The notes below the pieces were generated by a model. It was not told where the DNA came from. It was given only the letters and a program-made list of their open reading frames with translations, and ran no database searches. From contig CANMVY010000001.1 of the NCBI GenBank assembly GCA_947501265.1, forward strand, positions 1 through 64,000: DNA of 64,000 nucleotides, written 5' to 3'. A program made the position numbers and the translations under genes. Position 1 is the stretch's first letter. Each line of letters opens with the position of its first letter. This document shows, one piece after another, positions 10,488 to 60,962 of the stretch. This stretch comes from Bacteroidota bacterium. GTDB taxonomy: Bacteria > Bacteroidota > Bacteroidia > UBA7662 > CANHCV01.

Positions 10488-10575
10488 GGAGAGTTGGCAG
10501 AGTGGTCGATTGCGGCAGTCTTGAAAACTGTTGACTGTAACAGGTCCGGGGGTTCGAATCCCTCACTCTCCGCCA
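10488..10575 (+). tRNA. tRNA-Ser(UGA)
   Basis: An 88-nt class II tRNA. The acceptor stem GGAGAGT pairs with ACTCTCC, the anticodon loop cttgaaa gives UGA, there is a long variable arm, the T-loop is GTTCGAATC, the discriminator is G and CCA is encoded (10573-10575). It reads UCA and related codons. A large palindrome begins at its last base. Confidence 0.97.
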
Positions 10576-10697
10576 AAACAATTTCAAAGCCTCACTTCGT
10601 GAGGCTTTTTTTATGCTGATGAGTCAGAGCAAAGCTCTAGCGAATTTAGCATAAAAAAAAGCCTTAGCTGCGAAGCAGCTGGCTTTGAAATTGTTTT
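10575..10697. repeat. 123-bp nested imperfect palindrome at the tRNA-Ser 3' end
   Basis: Outer arms of 17 bp are perfectly complementary: aaaacaatttcaaagcc (10575-10591) and ggctttgaaattgtttt (10681-10697). Inside each arm is a smaller hairpin: ctcacttcgtgag on the left and agctgcgaagcagct on the right. Next inward are a matched pair of ggcttttttta/ataaaaaaaagcc segments and tatgct/agcata, and agagcaaagctct is at the centre. The left half doubles as the tRNA terminator. It looks like the terminator region duplicated in inverted orientation. Confidence 0.85.
10586..10612 (+). terminator. Terminator of tRNA-Ser(UGA)
   Basis: Stem aaagcctcac / gtgaggcttt with loop ttc is followed by a T run, 11 nt after the tRNA CCA. 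It lies within the left half of the larger palindrome. Confidence 0.85.
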
Positions 10698-11189
10698 AAA
10701 TCGCTCTCCCACTTAGGGATCACGAGCGAAGCAAGTCATCCCATTAAATCTGATTGGTGAACTCCCAAAAAGTAGTTCTGGCTTTGAAATGGCTTTGAAT
10801 CGCTCCCCCACTTAGGGATCACGAGCGAAGCGAGTCATCCCGTTAATTCTGATTGGTGAACTCCCAAAAAGTAGTTCTGGCTTTGAAATGGCTTTGAACC
10901 GCTCCACCACTTAGGGATCACGAGCGAAGCGAGTCATCCCGTTAAATCTGATTGGTGAACTCCCACAAAGTGCTTCTGGTTTGAAATTGTTTTTACCCCA
11001 TCCCCAACTTAGGGATCACGAGCGAAGCGAGTCATCCTGTTAATTCTGATTGGTGAACTCCCACAAAGTGCAGCTGGCTTTGAAATGGCTTTGAATCGCT
11101 CCCCCACTTAGGGATCACGAGCGAAGCGAGTCATCCCCGATTATTTCAATTACCTTTTTTCTAGAATACAGCTGGCTTTGAAATTGCGT
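10681..11189. repeat. Tandem array, about 99-bp unit, five full copies plus a partial one
   Basis: Units begin with ggctttgaaa (or ggtttgaaa) at 10681, 10780, 10879, 10978, 11076 and 11174, giving periods of 99, 99, 99, 98 and 98. Each full unit carries tagggatcacgagcgaagc, a short imperfect stem gggatca/tcatccc around it, and ctgattggtgaactccca. The unit sequence varies by only a few bases. There is no credible reading frame. The first base of the array is also the right arm of the palindrome next to tRNA-Ser. Confidence 0.9.
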
Positions 11190-11362
11190 AACCAATGGTT
11201 GAAAAACGAATCATCCATTGATGTTGTGAATGCACCTTTTCATCGATTAGAGCATAGGCAAACGTCCCGATTTGAACAAAATCATTTCTCCGATAATAAA
11301 CCTGAATCGGTGAAAATTTTTCAATTCTTTGAAGTACGATTCTGGCTAGCGCTCGCTCCCTG

Positions 11363-11662
11363 TTATGCCGCGTTTCCCTCTATTGGTTTGATATTATTGA
11401 ACTCTTGTTCTTTTTGACTTCGCTCTTCCTCTAAATCATAATCATCTTGAAGCCCTAACCAAAACTTAGCGCTTGTTCCGAAAAATTTGGAAAACCGAAT
11501 CGCAGTGTCAGCCGTGATTCTTCGATTACCTTTGATGATTTCAGAAATACGGGTCTGCGGAAGAAAAGTTTCCTTAGCCAAACGATAAGCAGAGGTCTCC
11601 ATAGGAATTAAGAATTCCTCGAGCAAGATTTCACCGGGGTGAATATTTTTCAGCTTTTCCAT
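11363..11662 (-). CDS. higA: HigA-type antitoxin
   Basis: A 99-residue Xre/HigA-family helix-turn-helix protein. The N-terminus NIHPGEILLEEFLIPM is the classic HigA start, and the DNA-binding helix pair is RLAKETFLPQTRISEIIKG followed by RRITADTAIRF. In such systems the antitoxin neutralises the upstream-encoded toxin and represses the operon. It begins 10 bp after the toxin stop, the toxin-first order expected for higBA. The pair sits inside the tandem repeat array, indicating accessory DNA. Confidence 0.93.
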   Translation of the reverse strand: MEKLKNIHPGEILLEEFLIPMETSAYRLAKETFLPQTRISEIIKGNRRITADTAIRFSKFFGTSAKFWLGLQDDYDLEEERSQKEQEFNNIKPIEGNAA

Positions 11663-11672
11663 ATCCGTTGCT

Positions 11673-11954
11673 TTAATGATAATCTACTATTCTTGTTTCG
11701 TATGCATCATTATTGATCCATTTGAAGATGATTCTCCATTGATTGTTTATTCGAATGCTGTAAAATTCTTGAAGATCACCTTTCAATTTTTCAAGTCTGT
11801 TTGCAGGCGGAATGCGAAGATCATTTACATCCTGAGCGTTGTTGATCATCCTAAATTTTCGACGCGCAACATCTTGAATTTCGTTTGGCAATTTTTTCGA
11901 ACGAATTCCATTCCAAATTTTCTCCGATTCTTTATCACCAAAACTTTTGATCAT
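11673..11954 (-). CDS. higB: HigB-type mRNA interferase toxin
   Basis: A 93-residue RelE/HigB-fold protein, full length for the family. Diagnostic segments are MIKSFGDKESEKIWNG, LRIPPANRLEKLKGD, YSIRINNQWRIIFKW and the terminal ETRIVDYH. HigB toxins cleave mRNA on the ribosome. It is first in a two-gene operon with higA. The upstream flank (11955-12057) leads directly into another copy of the tandem repeat unit, and no separate operator was identified. Confidence 0.93.
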   Translation of the reverse strand: MIKSFGDKESEKIWNGIRSKKLPNEIQDVARRKFRMINNAQDVNDLRIPPANRLEKLKGDLQEFYSIRINNQWRIIFKWINNDAYETRIVDYH

Positions 11955-12057
11955 TCGTTCCGAATTACGTTACTAACGCCAAAGGTAAGTATTTATTTCT
12001 TCTTAGGAAAGTTTTTAGTTTTGTTCTACTTCTATTCGTCTTAGCTGCGAAGCAGCT

Positions 12058-12120
12058 AGCTTTGAAATGGCTTTGAACCGCTCCCCCACTCAGGGATCAC
12101 GAGCGAAGCGAGTCATTTAG
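12058..12120. repeat. Detached copy of the 99-bp repeat unit
   Basis: The sequence from agctttgaaatggctttgaa to gagcgaagcgagtcattt matches the first two thirds of the array unit. The preceding ttagctgcgaagcagct (12041-12057) matches the tip of the palindrome at 10664-10680. It marks the far side of the higBA segment. Confidence 0.85.
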
Positions 12121-16475: not shown

Positions 16476-18718
16476 TATTGATCTTTCTTGTTGGCTTCAC
16501 GAATCATGCGCAACTGATCTTTCAATTGCCCTATTTCGACCTGAGCCACCCGAATTTTCTTGTCAACCTCGGCACGAAGGGCATCGATGTTTTTGCTATT
16601 GGCAAAAAACTGAATGTTGTTTTCGTACAAAGCGATGTCGTTCGATATTTTATCGATTTTCTGACGTAGAACTTGCTCTTCTTTGCGCATTGCGCCATCT
16701 CCCGACTCCTTCAACGATTCCAAACGATTCTGGAATTGCAAGCGATGCTTGTCGGCCTGATTCATTTTGATGGAACTGAAGTGACCATCGATCAAGGCAC
16801 GGTAATCATTTTGCAAAGCTTCTCGCTTGTCTTGTGGAACTTGCCCCAATTCGAACCAAGTATTTTGGAACGCTTTCAATTGATCAATATCTTTTCCAGG
16901 ATTCTCAGAAACTTGGAAGGCTTTGATTTCTTCCATCAAGGCCAACTTCTTGGTGTAGTTCTCGGCTTTTACGGAATCCAAAGAGGAGAAATATTCATTT
17001 TTCTTTTGGAAGAACCAATCGCAAGAGGTGCGGAAACGCTTCCAAATTTCGTCGGATTGTTCGCGGGGAACGGGACCAATTTTCTTCCATTCAGCCTGAA
17101 GGCGCAAGTATTCGTTGGTGGTATTTTTCCAATCGTTGCTATCCATTAATGCTTCAGCGTGAACGCACAATTCTTTTTTGCGGTTCAGGTTGTTGATTTG
17201 CTCTTGACGAGCGGAACGGAAATGATCGTTCTTCGCATTGAAAAATACGTTTCTTGCTCCTTTGAAACGTACCCAAAGGGCTTCGTTTTCTTCTTTAGCT
17301 GCTGGACCGGTTTTCTTCCATTGTTCAAAGATGGCTTCAACTTGTTCAGTAGCGTTTTTCCAATTTTTTTTGTTCTCTTCGGAATTGGCCGCGATGGCCT
17401 CTACCGCTTCGCACAAAGCCGTTTTCAATGCGGCATTGTTGGCGCGAGCTTGCTCCAATTGATCGATGTATTCTTTTCGGCGATCGTGGATTTTATCGGA
17501 AGCCGATTTGAATCGATCCCAAATTTCCTGACGTTGGGCCGGATTAACCGGTCCAATTTCTTTCCATTGAGCGAACAATTCATTGAGTTTACGGCTTGCT
17601 TCAGCCATATTTTCGTGAACGATGAGCGATTCGGCTTGATCGCACAAATCCAATTTAGCACGCAGATTTTTCTGCATGTCTAAATCGCGAAGCTCACGGT
17701 TGATTTTTAAGTTATCGTAGAACTTCTCATTGAGGGCGTGATAGTTGTCCCACAATTCCTGGGCATTAACTCCGGGAACGGAAGGCATCTGACGCCATTC
17801 ATCCTGCAAGCGACGGAACTCGTTGATTCCTTCGTTTGGATCTTCGGCCGTAAGGGCATGACGCATGGAGATGATCAGATTCTCGCGCTGTTTTTTACTA
17901 AGTTGACGAGAACGCTCGCGTTGATCGCGTTCGTTTTGCAAACGATTGCGGTAATGCGTTAAGGCCCCGTCGAACTTTTCTTTTTCTGGATCTACGTTAT
18001 CGAAGTCTTCGGCCAAGTTACCGAGATCGATGAAGGCGCGAAGGCGCTGTTGGCGCTCGTGGTTAAAGCGATCCAACAAAATGTTTTTCAATCGGTTTAC
18101 GCGAGCACGTGCGTCGAGTGGATTTCCTTCTTTGGTTACTGCGTAAAATTCATCCAACAATTCCTTTTTGGTTTTCGATTCCAAATCGGCATCGTCGTTG
18201 GCGGCTTCAGCGAAATCCGCCAAGCCGTGTTCGTCATCGTCGGCAATGGTTTCCACTTCTTCGGTTACTGCTACCGTTTCTGTGGCAGCGTTTTCTTCAA
18301 CAAGAACTTCTGCTGCGATTTCTTCGGAAGGAGTTTCTTCTACTGAAATTTCTTCAGCAGGCGCTTCTTCTGCGATTTCTTCGGAAGGAGTTTCTTCTAC
18401 TGAAATTTCTTCAGCAGGCGCTTCTTCTGCGATTTCTTCGGAAGGGGTTTCTTCTACTGAAATTTCTTCAGCAGGCGCTTCTTCCGCGATTTCTTCGGAA
18501 GGGGTTTCTTCTTGAACCATGTCTTCTGCGGCTTCAGCAACCACCTCTTCGGCCGTTGCTTCTTCTTCCAAAACTTCCGCTACAGCTTCTTCAGCAGGGG
18601 TTTCAGTAGGTTCAACCATGGATTCAGCTGGGGTTTCCACTGAATTTTGAGGAAGATCAGCTTCAGGCTGATTTTGGGAGATGTTTTCCATCTCATTTTC
18701 GTTGAGGTTCTCGTTCAT
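16475..18718 (-). CDS. DUF349 repeat protein with acidic tandem-repeat N-terminus
   Basis: A protein of about 747 residues. Residues 1-180 are extremely Glu/Ala-rich and contain three and a half copies of EETPSEEIAEEAPAEEISV (19 residues, 70-135). The remainder is helical and carries repeated DUF349 units with the core W-K-x-I/T-G-P, for example FAQWKEIGPVNPAQRQEIWDRF and LQAEWKKIGPVPREQSDEIWKRF. A coiled coil closes the C-terminus. No enzymatic motif is seen. The start is ATG 18718 (MNENLNENEMENISQ); an upstream in-frame ATG at 18949 lies inside the divergent lyase gene and is rejected. It leads an operon with the nucleoid-associated protein. Confidence 0.88.
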   Translation of the reverse strand: MNENLNENEMENISQNQPEADLPQNSVETPAESMVEPTETPAEEAVAEVLEEEATAEEVVAEAAEDMVQEETPSEEIAEEAPAEEISVEETPSEEIAEEAPAEEISVEETPSEEIAEEAPAEEISVEETPSEEIAAEVLVEENAATETVAVTEEVETIADDDEHGLADFAEAANDDADLESKTKKELLDEFYAVTKEGNPLDARARVNRLKNILLDRFNHERQQRLRAFIDLGNLAEDFDNVDPEKEKFDGALTHYRNRLQNERDQRERSRQLSKKQRENLIISMRHALTAEDPNEGINEFRRLQDEWRQMPSVPGVNAQELWDNYHALNEKFYDNLKINRELRDLDMQKNLRAKLDLCDQAESLIVHENMAEASRKLNELFAQWKEIGPVNPAQRQEIWDRFKSASDKIHDRRKEYIDQLEQARANNAALKTALCEAVEAIAANSEENKKNWKNATEQVEAIFEQWKKTGPAAKEENEALWVRFKGARNVFFNAKNDHFRSARQEQINNLNRKKELCVHAEALMDSNDWKNTTNEYLRLQAEWKKIGPVPREQSDEIWKRFRTSCDWFFQKKNEYFSSLDSVKAENYTKKLALMEEIKAFQVSENPGKDIDQLKAFQNTWFELGQVPQDKREALQNDYRALIDGHFSSIKMNQADKHRLQFQNRLESLKESGDGAMRKEEQVLRQKIDKISNDIALYENNIQFFANSKNIDALRAEVDKKIRVAQVEIGQLKDQLRMIREANKKDQ
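18314..18511 (-). repeat. 57-bp tandem repeat inside the DUF349 gene
   Basis: Three full and one partial 57-bp units encode the 19-residue acidic repeat. Copies differ at only a few positions (for example ggagtt versus ggggtt, tctgcg versus tccgcg), so expansion is recent or sequence conversion is active. The unit length is a multiple of three, so copy number can change without a frameshift. Confidence 0.9.
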
Positions 18719-24195: not shown

Positions 24196-24506
24196 CACAG
24201 AGGTTGATCCCAACTGCCATGATCCCACAAAAAAATCCATCGCGGCCAACGGTATTTACAAAAACCGAAAATTCAGGGCCGCTAGAAAAAGGGGGAAAAT
24301 AATCGGAAAAACCGGGGCAAATATTGTTGTGGAAACAGTTCTGAAATTTGGGTAAATGGGACTACCCTTCGACCGGCTTAGGGAAAACCCATGGTCGCAA
24401 AAGGGACAAATAGTGTTGTCGAAAATATTTCGAAGTTCGCGAAAACGGGGGCTACCGCCCCTACCCAAGTCAAATTTACGGCATTTCATGACCGAAGTCG
24501 TATCGT

Positions 24507-24541
24507 AAACGTTTATAAACGAATAGAAACGTTTATAAACG
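24507..24541. repeat. Twin 12-bp palindromes, 20-bp spacing
   Basis: aaacgtttataaacg occurs at 24507-24521 and again at 24527-24541. Each contains the perfect palindrome cgtttataaacg. The 20-bp repeat distance is about two helical turns, as in paired operator sites. The flanks (gtcgtatcg... and ...cataacgac) extend the symmetry imperfectly. Confidence 0.75.
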
Positions 24542-24775
24542 TTTCATAACGACTAGCAAAAATTAAACCCCTAACTTTACTTCCGGGGAGGGGTGGACAT
24601 AGTCCCCGTTTTTGATTTTCTATTTGGGATTTGCTTCATACCTTGGTTATTTTCTCATGTATTTAATAACCATTCACCCATCTTTAAGAAAATTGGAAAC
24701 GATTGAAACGGCTCTACTCCTTAACTTTAATTCCGGGGAAGGGTGGGTGTTCCCTGAGTTCAATCGAAGAGCGGT

Positions 24776-24795: not shown

Positions 24796-24858
24796 TATCC
24801 CCCAGTGGCAGCCTTTCAATTTTTTTGAAAATCTATTTAACAACGAGACCAGCATAAA

Positions 24859-24891
24859 TCGCTTCGCTCGTGATCCCTAATTGGGGAGCGA
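24859..24891 (-). repeat. Reverse-oriented copy of the tRNA-Ser(UGA) array core
   Basis: The minus strand reads tcgctcccc, aattagggatcacgagcg, aagcga in continuous order. This matches the core of the 99-bp unit (cgctcccccacttagggatc and following) and shows the element is dispersed. Confidence 0.75.
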
Positions 24892-24928
24892 TACACCCAT
24901 AGAAAACCAAAAACAATTCGTGGATTGA

Positions 24929-24956
24929 GTAGGTTCAACGCATGCGTTGAACCTAC
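24929..24956. repeat. 28-bp perfect palindrome containing copy 2 of the 22-bp design
   Basis: Half-site gtaggttcaacgca followed by its exact reverse complement. The inner 22 bp (24932-24953) differ from copy 1 at two symmetric base pairs per half, so pairing is preserved. Confidence 0.85.
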
Positions 24957-24972
24957 CATAAAACCAAATAAA

Positions 24973-24994
24973 AAAACCCAGCAAGCTGGGTTTT
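24973..24994 (-). terminator. Terminator of tRNA-Ser(GCU)
   Basis: Stem aaaacccagc / gctgggtttt with loop aa. On the minus strand it follows the tRNA end by about 10 nt and is followed by a T run (ttttttattt). Confidence 0.85.
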
Positions 24995-25004
24995 CAATGG
25001 GCAG

Positions 25005-25093
25005 CGGAGGGGGCGGGATTCGAACCCGCGGTACCGGTTTCCCAGTACGACAGTTTAGCAAACTGTTGGTTTCAGCCTCTCACCCACCCCTCC
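25005..25093 (-). tRNA. tRNA-Ser(GCU)
   Basis: An 89-nt class II tRNA on the minus strand. Acceptor stem GGAGGGG / CCCCTCC, anticodon loop tttgcta giving GCU, long variable arm, GGTTCGAATCC T-arm and G discriminator. CCA is not encoded. It decodes AGC and AGU. Confidence 0.97.
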
Positions 25094-40263: not shown

Positions 40264-41163
40264 TTATGCTTTAGGATGTTTCTTTTTGTACATGTCGCGC
40301 AATCGCTCAATAGATTGATGCGTATAAACCTGGGTAGCTGCCAAACTCGAGTGGCCCAATAATTCCTTAACCGCTGCCAGCTCAGCACCCTCATCGAGAA
40401 GATGGGTTGCAAATGCATGCCGAAATTGGTGGGGACCTTTTTTAGTAGAAGTAGTTACCATCGATAGTGATTCTCGAACAAATTGATAAACGTGTGAAAC
40501 GGTTAAAGAAGTGCCTTTCGGATGAAGAAAAACTTCATCACCCGTATACAACGGAAATTTCTCGTTCTTAATAGCAAGGTAACGTAAAATTTCTTTTTTC
40601 AAAAAATTTGTCATGGGAATTATGCGCTCTTTACCTCTTTTACCCAATACTTTTAGTTGACTTCCCGACAAATCCAGATCCTTTTGCTTCAATCCAACCA
40701 ATTCTGCACGTCGAACACCGGTAGAGTACAAAAAGGAACATAAAATTCTTTTTAAGGAGGATAGATAATCATCAACATCTTGAAACGCTTCAAATAATTT
40801 CTCCATGGTAACTTGGTCTACACCCTCGGCCAACTTCTTCGAAACTTTTGGCTTTTTAATTTTTTGAAGGGGATCCGTTGAAATCAATTGCTTTTTAAGT
40901 AAATACTTACTAAAGGATTGCAAGGAAGAAATTTTTCGATGAATGGTTTTGGGTTGGTTCCCCTTTTCCGATAAATAAACCATGTAAGCACGAAGGACGG
41001 TTAAATTCACCTCGGCAAACGAATGGATCTCAAATGCTTGTTGGATAAAAAAATAAAACTCGCGCAAATCCTGATGATAAGCGCGAGTTGTATGTATACT
41101 AAATCGTTTTTCGAATTGAAGGTATTCGATGAACGATTGAAGGTATGTTTCTTCAGCTTTCAC
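40264..41163 (-). CDS. xerC: Tyrosine recombinase, XerC/XerD type
   Basis: A 299-residue site-specific recombinase. It has an N-terminal SAM-like DNA-binding domain (about 1-90, LQSFIEYLQFEKRFSIHTT) and a catalytic domain with the R in YSTGVRRAELVGL, H-x-x-R in PHQFRHAFATHLLDEG, His in LLGHSSLAATQVYTH and the nucleophilic Tyr of that same segment. It resolves chromosome dimers at dif. It lies between rpsU and hpf, the housekeeping location, so it is not a mobile-element integrase. XerC versus XerD is not certain. Confidence 0.93.
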   Translation of the reverse strand: MKAEETYLQSFIEYLQFEKRFSIHTTRAYHQDLREFYFFIQQAFEIHSFAEVNLTVLRAYMVYLSEKGNQPKTIHRKISSLQSFSKYLLKKQLISTDPLQKIKKPKVSKKLAEGVDQVTMEKLFEAFQDVDDYLSSLKRILCSFLYSTGVRRAELVGLKQKDLDLSGSQLKVLGKRGKERIIPMTNFLKKEILRYLAIKNEKFPLYTGDEVFLHPKGTSLTVSHVYQFVRESLSMVTTSTKKGPHQFRHAFATHLLDEGAELAAVKELLGHSSLAATQVYTHQSIERLRDMYKKKHPKA

Positions 41164-60179: not shown

Positions 60180-60962
60180 TTAACCTTCTTTATTTTCTGA
60201 ATTTTCATCAGAAGAGCTTTCTTCTGATGATTGATCACCTGTCGAAGTATTATCTTCAGAAACAACTTCAGATGTTTCGGTTGATGCTTCTTCAACGGCA
60301 GTAGGAGTTTCCTCTACGGCAACTGGAGTTTCAACAACTTCCTCAACTGCAACTGGAGTTTCCTCTACAGCAACTGGTGTTTCAACAACTTCCTCAACTG
60401 CAATTGTGGTTTCCTCTACAGCAACTGGAGTTTCAACAACTTCCTCAACTGCAGCAGCGGTTTCCTCTACAGCAACTGGCGTTTCAACAACTTCATCTAC
60501 TGCTGCTGGTGTTTCAACAACTGGAGCTGATTCTGTAGCAGTAGAAGTAGCTTTTCTACGGCTACGACGAGTTGTTGCTTTCTTGGCTTCTTTCACGTAA
60601 ATTTCGTTGAAATCTACCAATTCAATCATGGCAGTTTCTGCACTATCCCCTAAACGGAAACCCAATTTGATGATGCGGGTATATCCACCTGGACGCTCGC
60701 TAATTTTTCCAGAAATAACATTGAACAACTCGGTTACTGCAACTTTATCTTGAAGATAAGAGAAAACCGTACGACGATTCGTTGTTGTATCACTTTTGGA
60801 CTTTGTAATTAAAGGCTCAACGTATTTACGAAGGGCTTTAGCTTTAGCTACAGTCGTAGTAATTCTTTTTGATTTGATCAAAGATGCAGCCATATTTGCC
60901 AACATCAAACGACGGTGGCCGGCTTTTCTACCTAAATGGTTATTTGCTTTATTGTGTCTCAT
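60180..60962 (-). CDS. rplQ: Ribosomal protein bL17 with a long acidic repeat tail
   Basis: Residues 1-126 are a normal L17 core ([20 protein letters not shown], then [12 protein letters not shown] and [18 protein letters not shown]). Residues about 127-260 are an extra tail: a short basic patch ([14 protein letters not shown]), four 17-residue units built on [10 protein letters not shown] (158-218) and a Ser/Glu end. Bacterial L17 is usually about 120-170 residues, so the tail doubles the protein. The tail function is unknown. It is the last gene of the ribosomal cluster, 2 bp after rpoA. Confidence 0.97.
60288..60521 (-). repeat. 51-bp tandem repeat inside rplQ
   Basis: Four units of 51 bp encode [10 protein letters not shown] plus seven variable residues, at protein positions 158, 175, 192 and 209. 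A degenerate unit ([10 protein letters not shown]) precedes them at 148. Confidence 0.88.

Follow-up and report, generated by a model that had tools for sequence, protein, structure and literature searches.

A gene-less palindromic element behind serine tRNA genes of Bacteroidota that resembles a minimal tRNA-targeted integrative element

The locus behind tRNA-Ser(UGA)

The window analyzed here is the whole of a 64,000-nt stretch from a Bacteroidota bacterium (GCA_947501265.1, contig CANMVY010000001.1, positions 1-64,000, forward strand), in which a tRNA-Ser(UGA) gene is followed by a large palindrome, a core hairpin, a tandem array and a higBA toxin-antitoxin pair (Table 1). In the tRNA, the 3' part of the T-loop/T-stem (AATCCC) lies at 10557-10562 and the CCA at 10573-10575. 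A preliminary description of this DNA had placed the start of the palindrome exactly at the CCA end, and the last A of the CCA is indeed the first base of the left outer arm. The two outer arms (10575-10591 and 10681-10697) are, as described there, perfect: 17 nt long, 100% complementary and 89 nt apart, and the smaller hairpins in the two arm regions have unlike tips. RNA folding of 10570-10702 gave -58.6 kcal/mol, where shuffled sequences averaged -29.5 (z -8.0), a second RNA fold computation on the palindrome gave z -6.4 against shuffles, and DNA folding gave z -8.1 and -8.4 on the two strands. The arms and these folds support the suggestion that the palindrome is cruciform-capable. A terminator scan returned one match with a T-rich tail in each direction, in agreement with the proposal that the right half is an inverted terminator. 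Three features were absent from the preliminary description, namely the inner stem, the core with its array of ~99-bp units, and a second copy of the element after tRNA-Ser(GCU). The inner stem is a third stem, with a hairpin of its own, inside the outer arms, and the predicted shape is therefore a four-way junction; one of its pairs is altered on both sides between species (AGAGC/GCTCT versus TGAGC/GCTCA).

Table 1. Features at and around the two elements in the window.
Feature	Position	Strand	Basis
tRNA-Ser(UGA)	10488-10575	+	ARAGORN and sequence
Left outer arm, AAAACAATTTCAAAGCC	10575-10591	+	Arm pairing; no difference among the three species of the genus
Hairpin 1 with T-run, terminator of tRNA-Ser(UGA)	10586-10612	+	Terminator scan
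Inner stem (10606-10617 with 10648-10659) closing the middle hairpin	10606-10659	+	Pairing, fold, genus comparison
Hairpin 2, TTAGCTGCGAAGCAGCT, GNA triloop; terminator-like on the - strand	10664-10680	+	Sequence and terminator scan
Tandem array of ~99-bp units made up of right arm and core, with additional cores at 10798, 10897, 10995 and 11094	10679-11137	+	Repeat analysis, model R1
Right outer arm, GGCTTTGAAATTGTTTT	10681-10697	+	Arm pairing
Core hairpin, CTCCC...GGGATCAcgAGCGAAGCaaGTCATCCC, T-arm-like, directly 3' of the right outer arm	10699-10742	+	Model R1, 58.2 bits
Partial right-arm copy, left border of the higBA insert	11168-11190	+	
HigA-like antitoxin (HTH_3)	11363-11662	-	Pfam PF01381
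HigB-like toxin	11673-11954	-	Pfam PF05015, E 1.4e-23
Distal repeat of hairpin 2, right arm and core, bordering the higBA insert on the right	12041-12119	+	
Second element after tRNA-Ser(GCU) (25004-25093): arms CCCATTGAAAACC / GGTTTTCtATGGG; core 24851-24894	24851-25003	-	

The palindrome after tRNA-Ser(GCU) has the same architecture as that after tRNA-Ser(UGA) and a sequence unlike it. When the genome was searched with the core pattern and with R1, a covariance model of the core hairpin, the core was found at these two tRNA-Ser loci only. The higBA pair stands between copies of the element's right half both in this genome and in the same-genus genome G002 (locus L019), a cassette-like arrangement. 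Tandem amplification of the right half alone (inverted hairpin, arm and core) is seen in many genera, at L194, L207, L208, L221 and L236 as well as at 10679-11137 of the window; at loci of this kind no amplified left half was seen. The arrays of L208, L211 and L212 are preceded by what is apparently the same transposase C-terminus and end sequence, which suggests that insertion sequences jump into element arrays. Elsewhere in the window there are tandem arrays of 51-57 bp units (18292-18552 and 60288-60522), about four copies of a 10-bp palindromic unit, TAAACGTTTA, in an intergenic stretch (24506-24549), and, on the minus strand at 40312-40806, a tyrosine recombinase (Phage_integrase, 302-aa frame) that adjoins a tRNA-Thr/Tyr/Gly/Thr cluster and is probably a chromosomal gene of Xer type.

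Distribution and a shape kept without its sequence

Behind the same tRNA, both other genomes of the genus carry the left half together with the right half or at least its beginning, their contigs ending within or just past the palindrome, and in G002 the core, the array and higBA are also present. Together with relatives found across the phylum, this speaks against a one-off duplication, the alternative that the preliminary description had named against its own reading. Where the three species can be aligned, their left arms do not differ, and the element is under purifying selection within the genus. Further afield, a survey behind tRNA-Ser in 40 related genomes found that layout again in several families, with arms of unrelated sequence. 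Model R1 matched cores in 52 of 395 genomes of the class. In a sample of the phylum it matched four genomes outside the class: three of these matches lie after tRNA-Ser, and the fourth (L237) was rejected as a false positive, a dispersed repeat with no tRNA. By our own count, a complete tRNA stands just upstream on the same strand at 36 of the 46 core sites inspected. The remaining sites are mostly contig edges, with some tRNA-end fragments and insertion-sequence neighbours; the contig of L189 begins inside a tRNA end, and L224 and L226 carry a tRNA-like 3' fragment. The tRNAs ahead of the cores are mostly serine, some proline or arginine, and in one case tyrosine (L235, phylum sample). Over 40 scored loci the distance from tRNA to core is 109-145 nt, and for nearly all of them it is 109-134 nt, a gap in which there is no coding capacity. 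A search for a shared neighbouring protein brought out no candidate, the larger clusters of shared ORFs being tRNA/element stretches or homologous flanks.

Across these loci the arms pair with each other and not with a common sequence. The matched-arm sum was 497 within loci versus a permutation mean of 224 (sd 11, z 24), and the median identity between left arms of different loci was 35%; these figures support the preliminary idea that structure rather than sequence is kept. Terminator-type T-runs in both directions occur at 35 of 40 loci. In 38 of 47 cores the stem opens with GGGAT/ATCCC and a C-A mismatch; next comes a variable stem whose second inner pair may be C-G, A-T, G-C or T-A and is paired in 39 of 47 against 24.8 in shuffles (0/2000). 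At the apex of 31 of 52 cores is a GNA triloop. The GNA motif in the form GCGAAGC is an unusually stable DNA mini-hairpin. A mini-hairpin of the GCGAAGC type is put to use in PMC4686876. The core as a whole can be likened to a tRNA T-arm (GGGTTCGAATCCC) whose loop is larger than usual. The 3' strand of the core tracks the T-stem of the adjacent tRNA, AATCCTG beside tRNA-Pro and AATCCC beside tRNA-Ser (0/5000 permutations).

T-runs in both directions should stop transcription from both sides, so that a single RNA containing both outer arms is unlikely. The complementarity of the arms is most simply explained by selection on DNA, as a cruciform or as a folded single strand that joins the tRNA end and the core; template switching could likewise keep the arms perfect.

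Insertion at the tRNA end

At L016, the tRNA-end segment ATCCCTCTCTCTCCGC recurs past the core and is followed by TGAGTACAGTTCGC, whereas at L143 and L144 TGAGTACAGTTCGC directly adjoins the tRNA, as expected of an empty site. This filled/empty pair defines a 174-bp insert with a 16-bp repeat, for one filled locus (L016) and empty genomes that belong to other genera of the same family, not to the same species. In a BLAST comparison of L016 with L143, the tRNA side was 96.6% and the far side 96.3% identical. A full direct repeat of the tRNA 3' end is present at L016, L167, L201, L205, L206 and L216, and an imperfect one at L225; elements stand in tandem at L201 (two) and at L205, behind tRNA-Pro. 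Most copies, those of the window included, lack the full direct repeat, and after the cores in the window the displaced tRNA end is no longer recognisable. The copy in the window would be an old resident, probably no longer mobile, with a right half that has multiplied in tandem. One genome has homologous elements at two of its tRNA-Ser genes (L119/L160), with an alignment that stops short of the flanks, and congeneric genomes have them at genes for different isoacceptors (L134/L183). A point against integration of the usual T-loop kind is that the repeat starts at AAT and spans only three of the seven T-loop bases. Phage Ms6, an example of the T-loop class of tRNA integration, needs identity over the full core (PMC1762012). 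At L143 and L144 a longer integrative element apparently starts directly at the tRNA-Ser (UGA and CGA) with TGAGTACAG..., followed by an integrase-like reading frame identified by eye; the left end of this longer element is also found behind the small element in L016. Sequence comparison thus shows the architecture, the linkage to tRNA genes, the pairing of arms within but not between loci, and an insertion that repeats the tRNA 3' end directly without disrupting the tRNA.

A probable integrative element and its alternatives

We consider it probable that the palindrome and core make up a non-coding integrative element of ~160-185 bp, which has as its target the T-loop/acceptor end of tRNA genes, in most cases those for serine, and is moved in trans. 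Its parts would follow in the order terminator hairpin right after the CCA, four-way-junction palindrome and core hairpin, the 3' stem of the core being equivalent to the tRNA's own T-stem strand (AATCCC...). Insertion and excision would be carried out by a recombinase supplied in trans, most likely the tyrosine integrase of tRNA-targeting elements, and folding as a single strand or a cruciform probably brings together the two ends, the tRNA end and the core, as a putative folded substrate. The mirrored terminators would preserve termination of the tRNA and block read-through from both sides. Among the suggestions of the preliminary description, a recombination site comes nearest to this reading. 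The tandem duplication of the right half is left unaccounted for by it.

No integrase ORF lies beside the tRNA in the window, the genome's Phage_integrase genes lie elsewhere, and among the several tyrosine recombinases in each genome examined none was linked to the element. Because tyrosine recombinases occur in every genome tested, this class of enzyme is the default candidate for the mover and not a proven one. An autonomous parent with the same core was not found. The exact core pattern had 0 matches in viral contigs, and plasmid and phage records gave no match; a gapped pattern did match five viral contigs, all in one and the same stretch resembling part of a coding gene, and as that stretch has neither tRNA nor palindrome, the matches were taken as chance and a viral origin was rejected. 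Derivation from a casposon was likewise set aside, Cas1 being present in one of eight element genomes and absent from the other seven.

In its working, the element resembles a minimal tRNA-targeted integrative element, but it has not been shown to belong to any named family, and the family appears previously undescribed in that open-licence papers yielded no description of it. Genomic islands and ICEs in tRNA genes share with it insertion at the tRNA 3' end, restoration of the tRNA, a displaced tRNA fragment at the far end and tandem accretion; however, they carry an integrase and are kilobases long, whereas the element has ~170 bp, no genes, and an identity block that holds only part of the T-loop. 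The Islander database tests for an integrase and rejects candidates < 2 kb (PMC4383910), and elements of this size would therefore be missed. CIMEs share att-like flanking repeats, the lack of integration and transfer genes, and tandem arrays at a tRNA end, but they are described as decayed ICEs or IMEs (PMC5704250), while the element keeps a fixed four-way-junction architecture across families. MITEs such as MITECca01 of Cardinium (PMC9769881) are also short and non-coding, with inverted repeats, and are presumably moved in trans; unlike them, the element is not dispersed, is tRNA-specific, has a core hairpin after the right terminal repeat and has no known parental IS. PINSR of Prevotella, a non-coding repeat of 188 bp, is likewise from the Bacteroidota, but is dispersed in 177-184 intergenic copies, without terminal inverted repeats or a reported tRNA link (PMC4755523).

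A broader reading, which we regard as possible but doubtful, is that minimal, gene-less mobile elements occur phylum-wide which use a tRNA T-arm bearing an expanded-loop hairpin as their att site and recombine as folded single-stranded DNA, tRNA genes serving as the 'attI' of an integron-like array with an occasional gene insert (higBA). Judged from general knowledge of attC sites, the element shares with integron cassette arrays a hairpin in which the end stems and a mismatch are conserved and the inner stem varies, a 3' stem in common with the target, and arrays, once with a toxin-antitoxin insert. It differs in its sequence boxes, with no attC boxes (RYYYAAC/GTTRRRY) seen by eye in the core, in the lack of a nearby IntI, and in that its cores mostly have no genes between them.

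It is unlikely that the palindrome is a plain bidirectional intrinsic terminator between the tRNA gene and convergent neighbours, with arms that match as both halves are terminator hairpins. The terminator-like hairpin on each strand and the frequent T-runs in both directions fit such a role, and at 22 of 36 scorable loci the first ORF downstream is convergent, but this would leave unexplained why the outer arms reach beyond the terminators, why a conserved core tracks the tRNA T-stem, why the tRNA end recurs as a direct repeat, why there is an empty site and why only a few tRNA families are involved. Quasi-palindromes are known to be corrected by mutation, and fold-back copying at the tRNA terminator might have made the right half and kept it perfect, as a by-product with neither function nor mobility. 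The local terminator is present as inverted copies with different tips, and template switching would also yield locus-specific complementarity. Against it, the core is common to unrelated loci and cannot be produced by terminator copying, and neither fixed spacing nor direct repeats nor insertion with a repeat are products of fold-back; we hold this origin to be quite improbable. Very unlikely, too, is a structured non-coding RNA, or a regulator in the tRNA 3' trailer, encoded behind the tRNA genes. The strong RNA fold (z -8), the covarying stems and the purifying selection within the genus would suit it, but the T-runs in both directions make a single transcript over both arms unlikely, tandem elements with tRNA-end repeats point to mobility, and no Rfam family matches: at the gathering score only tRNAs were returned in the window and 20 relatives, and weak E-value matches were at chance level. 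As a separate candidate, a hammerhead ribozyme was considered for the middle hairpin (window 10618-10650), where CTGATGAG...GCGAA is suggestive, and was rejected: G002 has CTCATGA in place of an intact motif, nothing resembling a cleavage strand could be made out, and there was no Rfam match.

The slimmest chance goes to the REP/REPIN-like element that the preliminary description had also offered, mobilised by a Y1 (RAYT-type) transposase: it has in its favour small hairpins with stable tips, some tandem arrays and a Y1_Tnp gene in seven of eight element genomes tested, but the element is not dispersed, with its core at two tRNA-Ser loci only in this genome, is strictly linked to tRNA genes, has direct repeats and requires no Y1 transposase, Y1_Tnp not being detected in the element-bearing genomes G007, G009 and G010. 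By our own reading of the lists, Y1_Tnp occurs in about 39 of the 52 genomes with the element and in 259 of all 395, and there is therefore no clear association with the element. To our knowledge, REP elements do not make direct repeats of a tRNA end.

If the integrative-element reading is true, the element would be among the smallest site-specific integrative elements described, and one missed by island finders that require an integrase and at least 2 kb. It may also account for several assemblies that break just behind serine tRNA genes. It would represent selection on DNA shape without sequence, in a fixed geometry anchored to a tRNA, and would offer a direct test case for folded single strands as the substrate of a tRNA-targeting recombinase.
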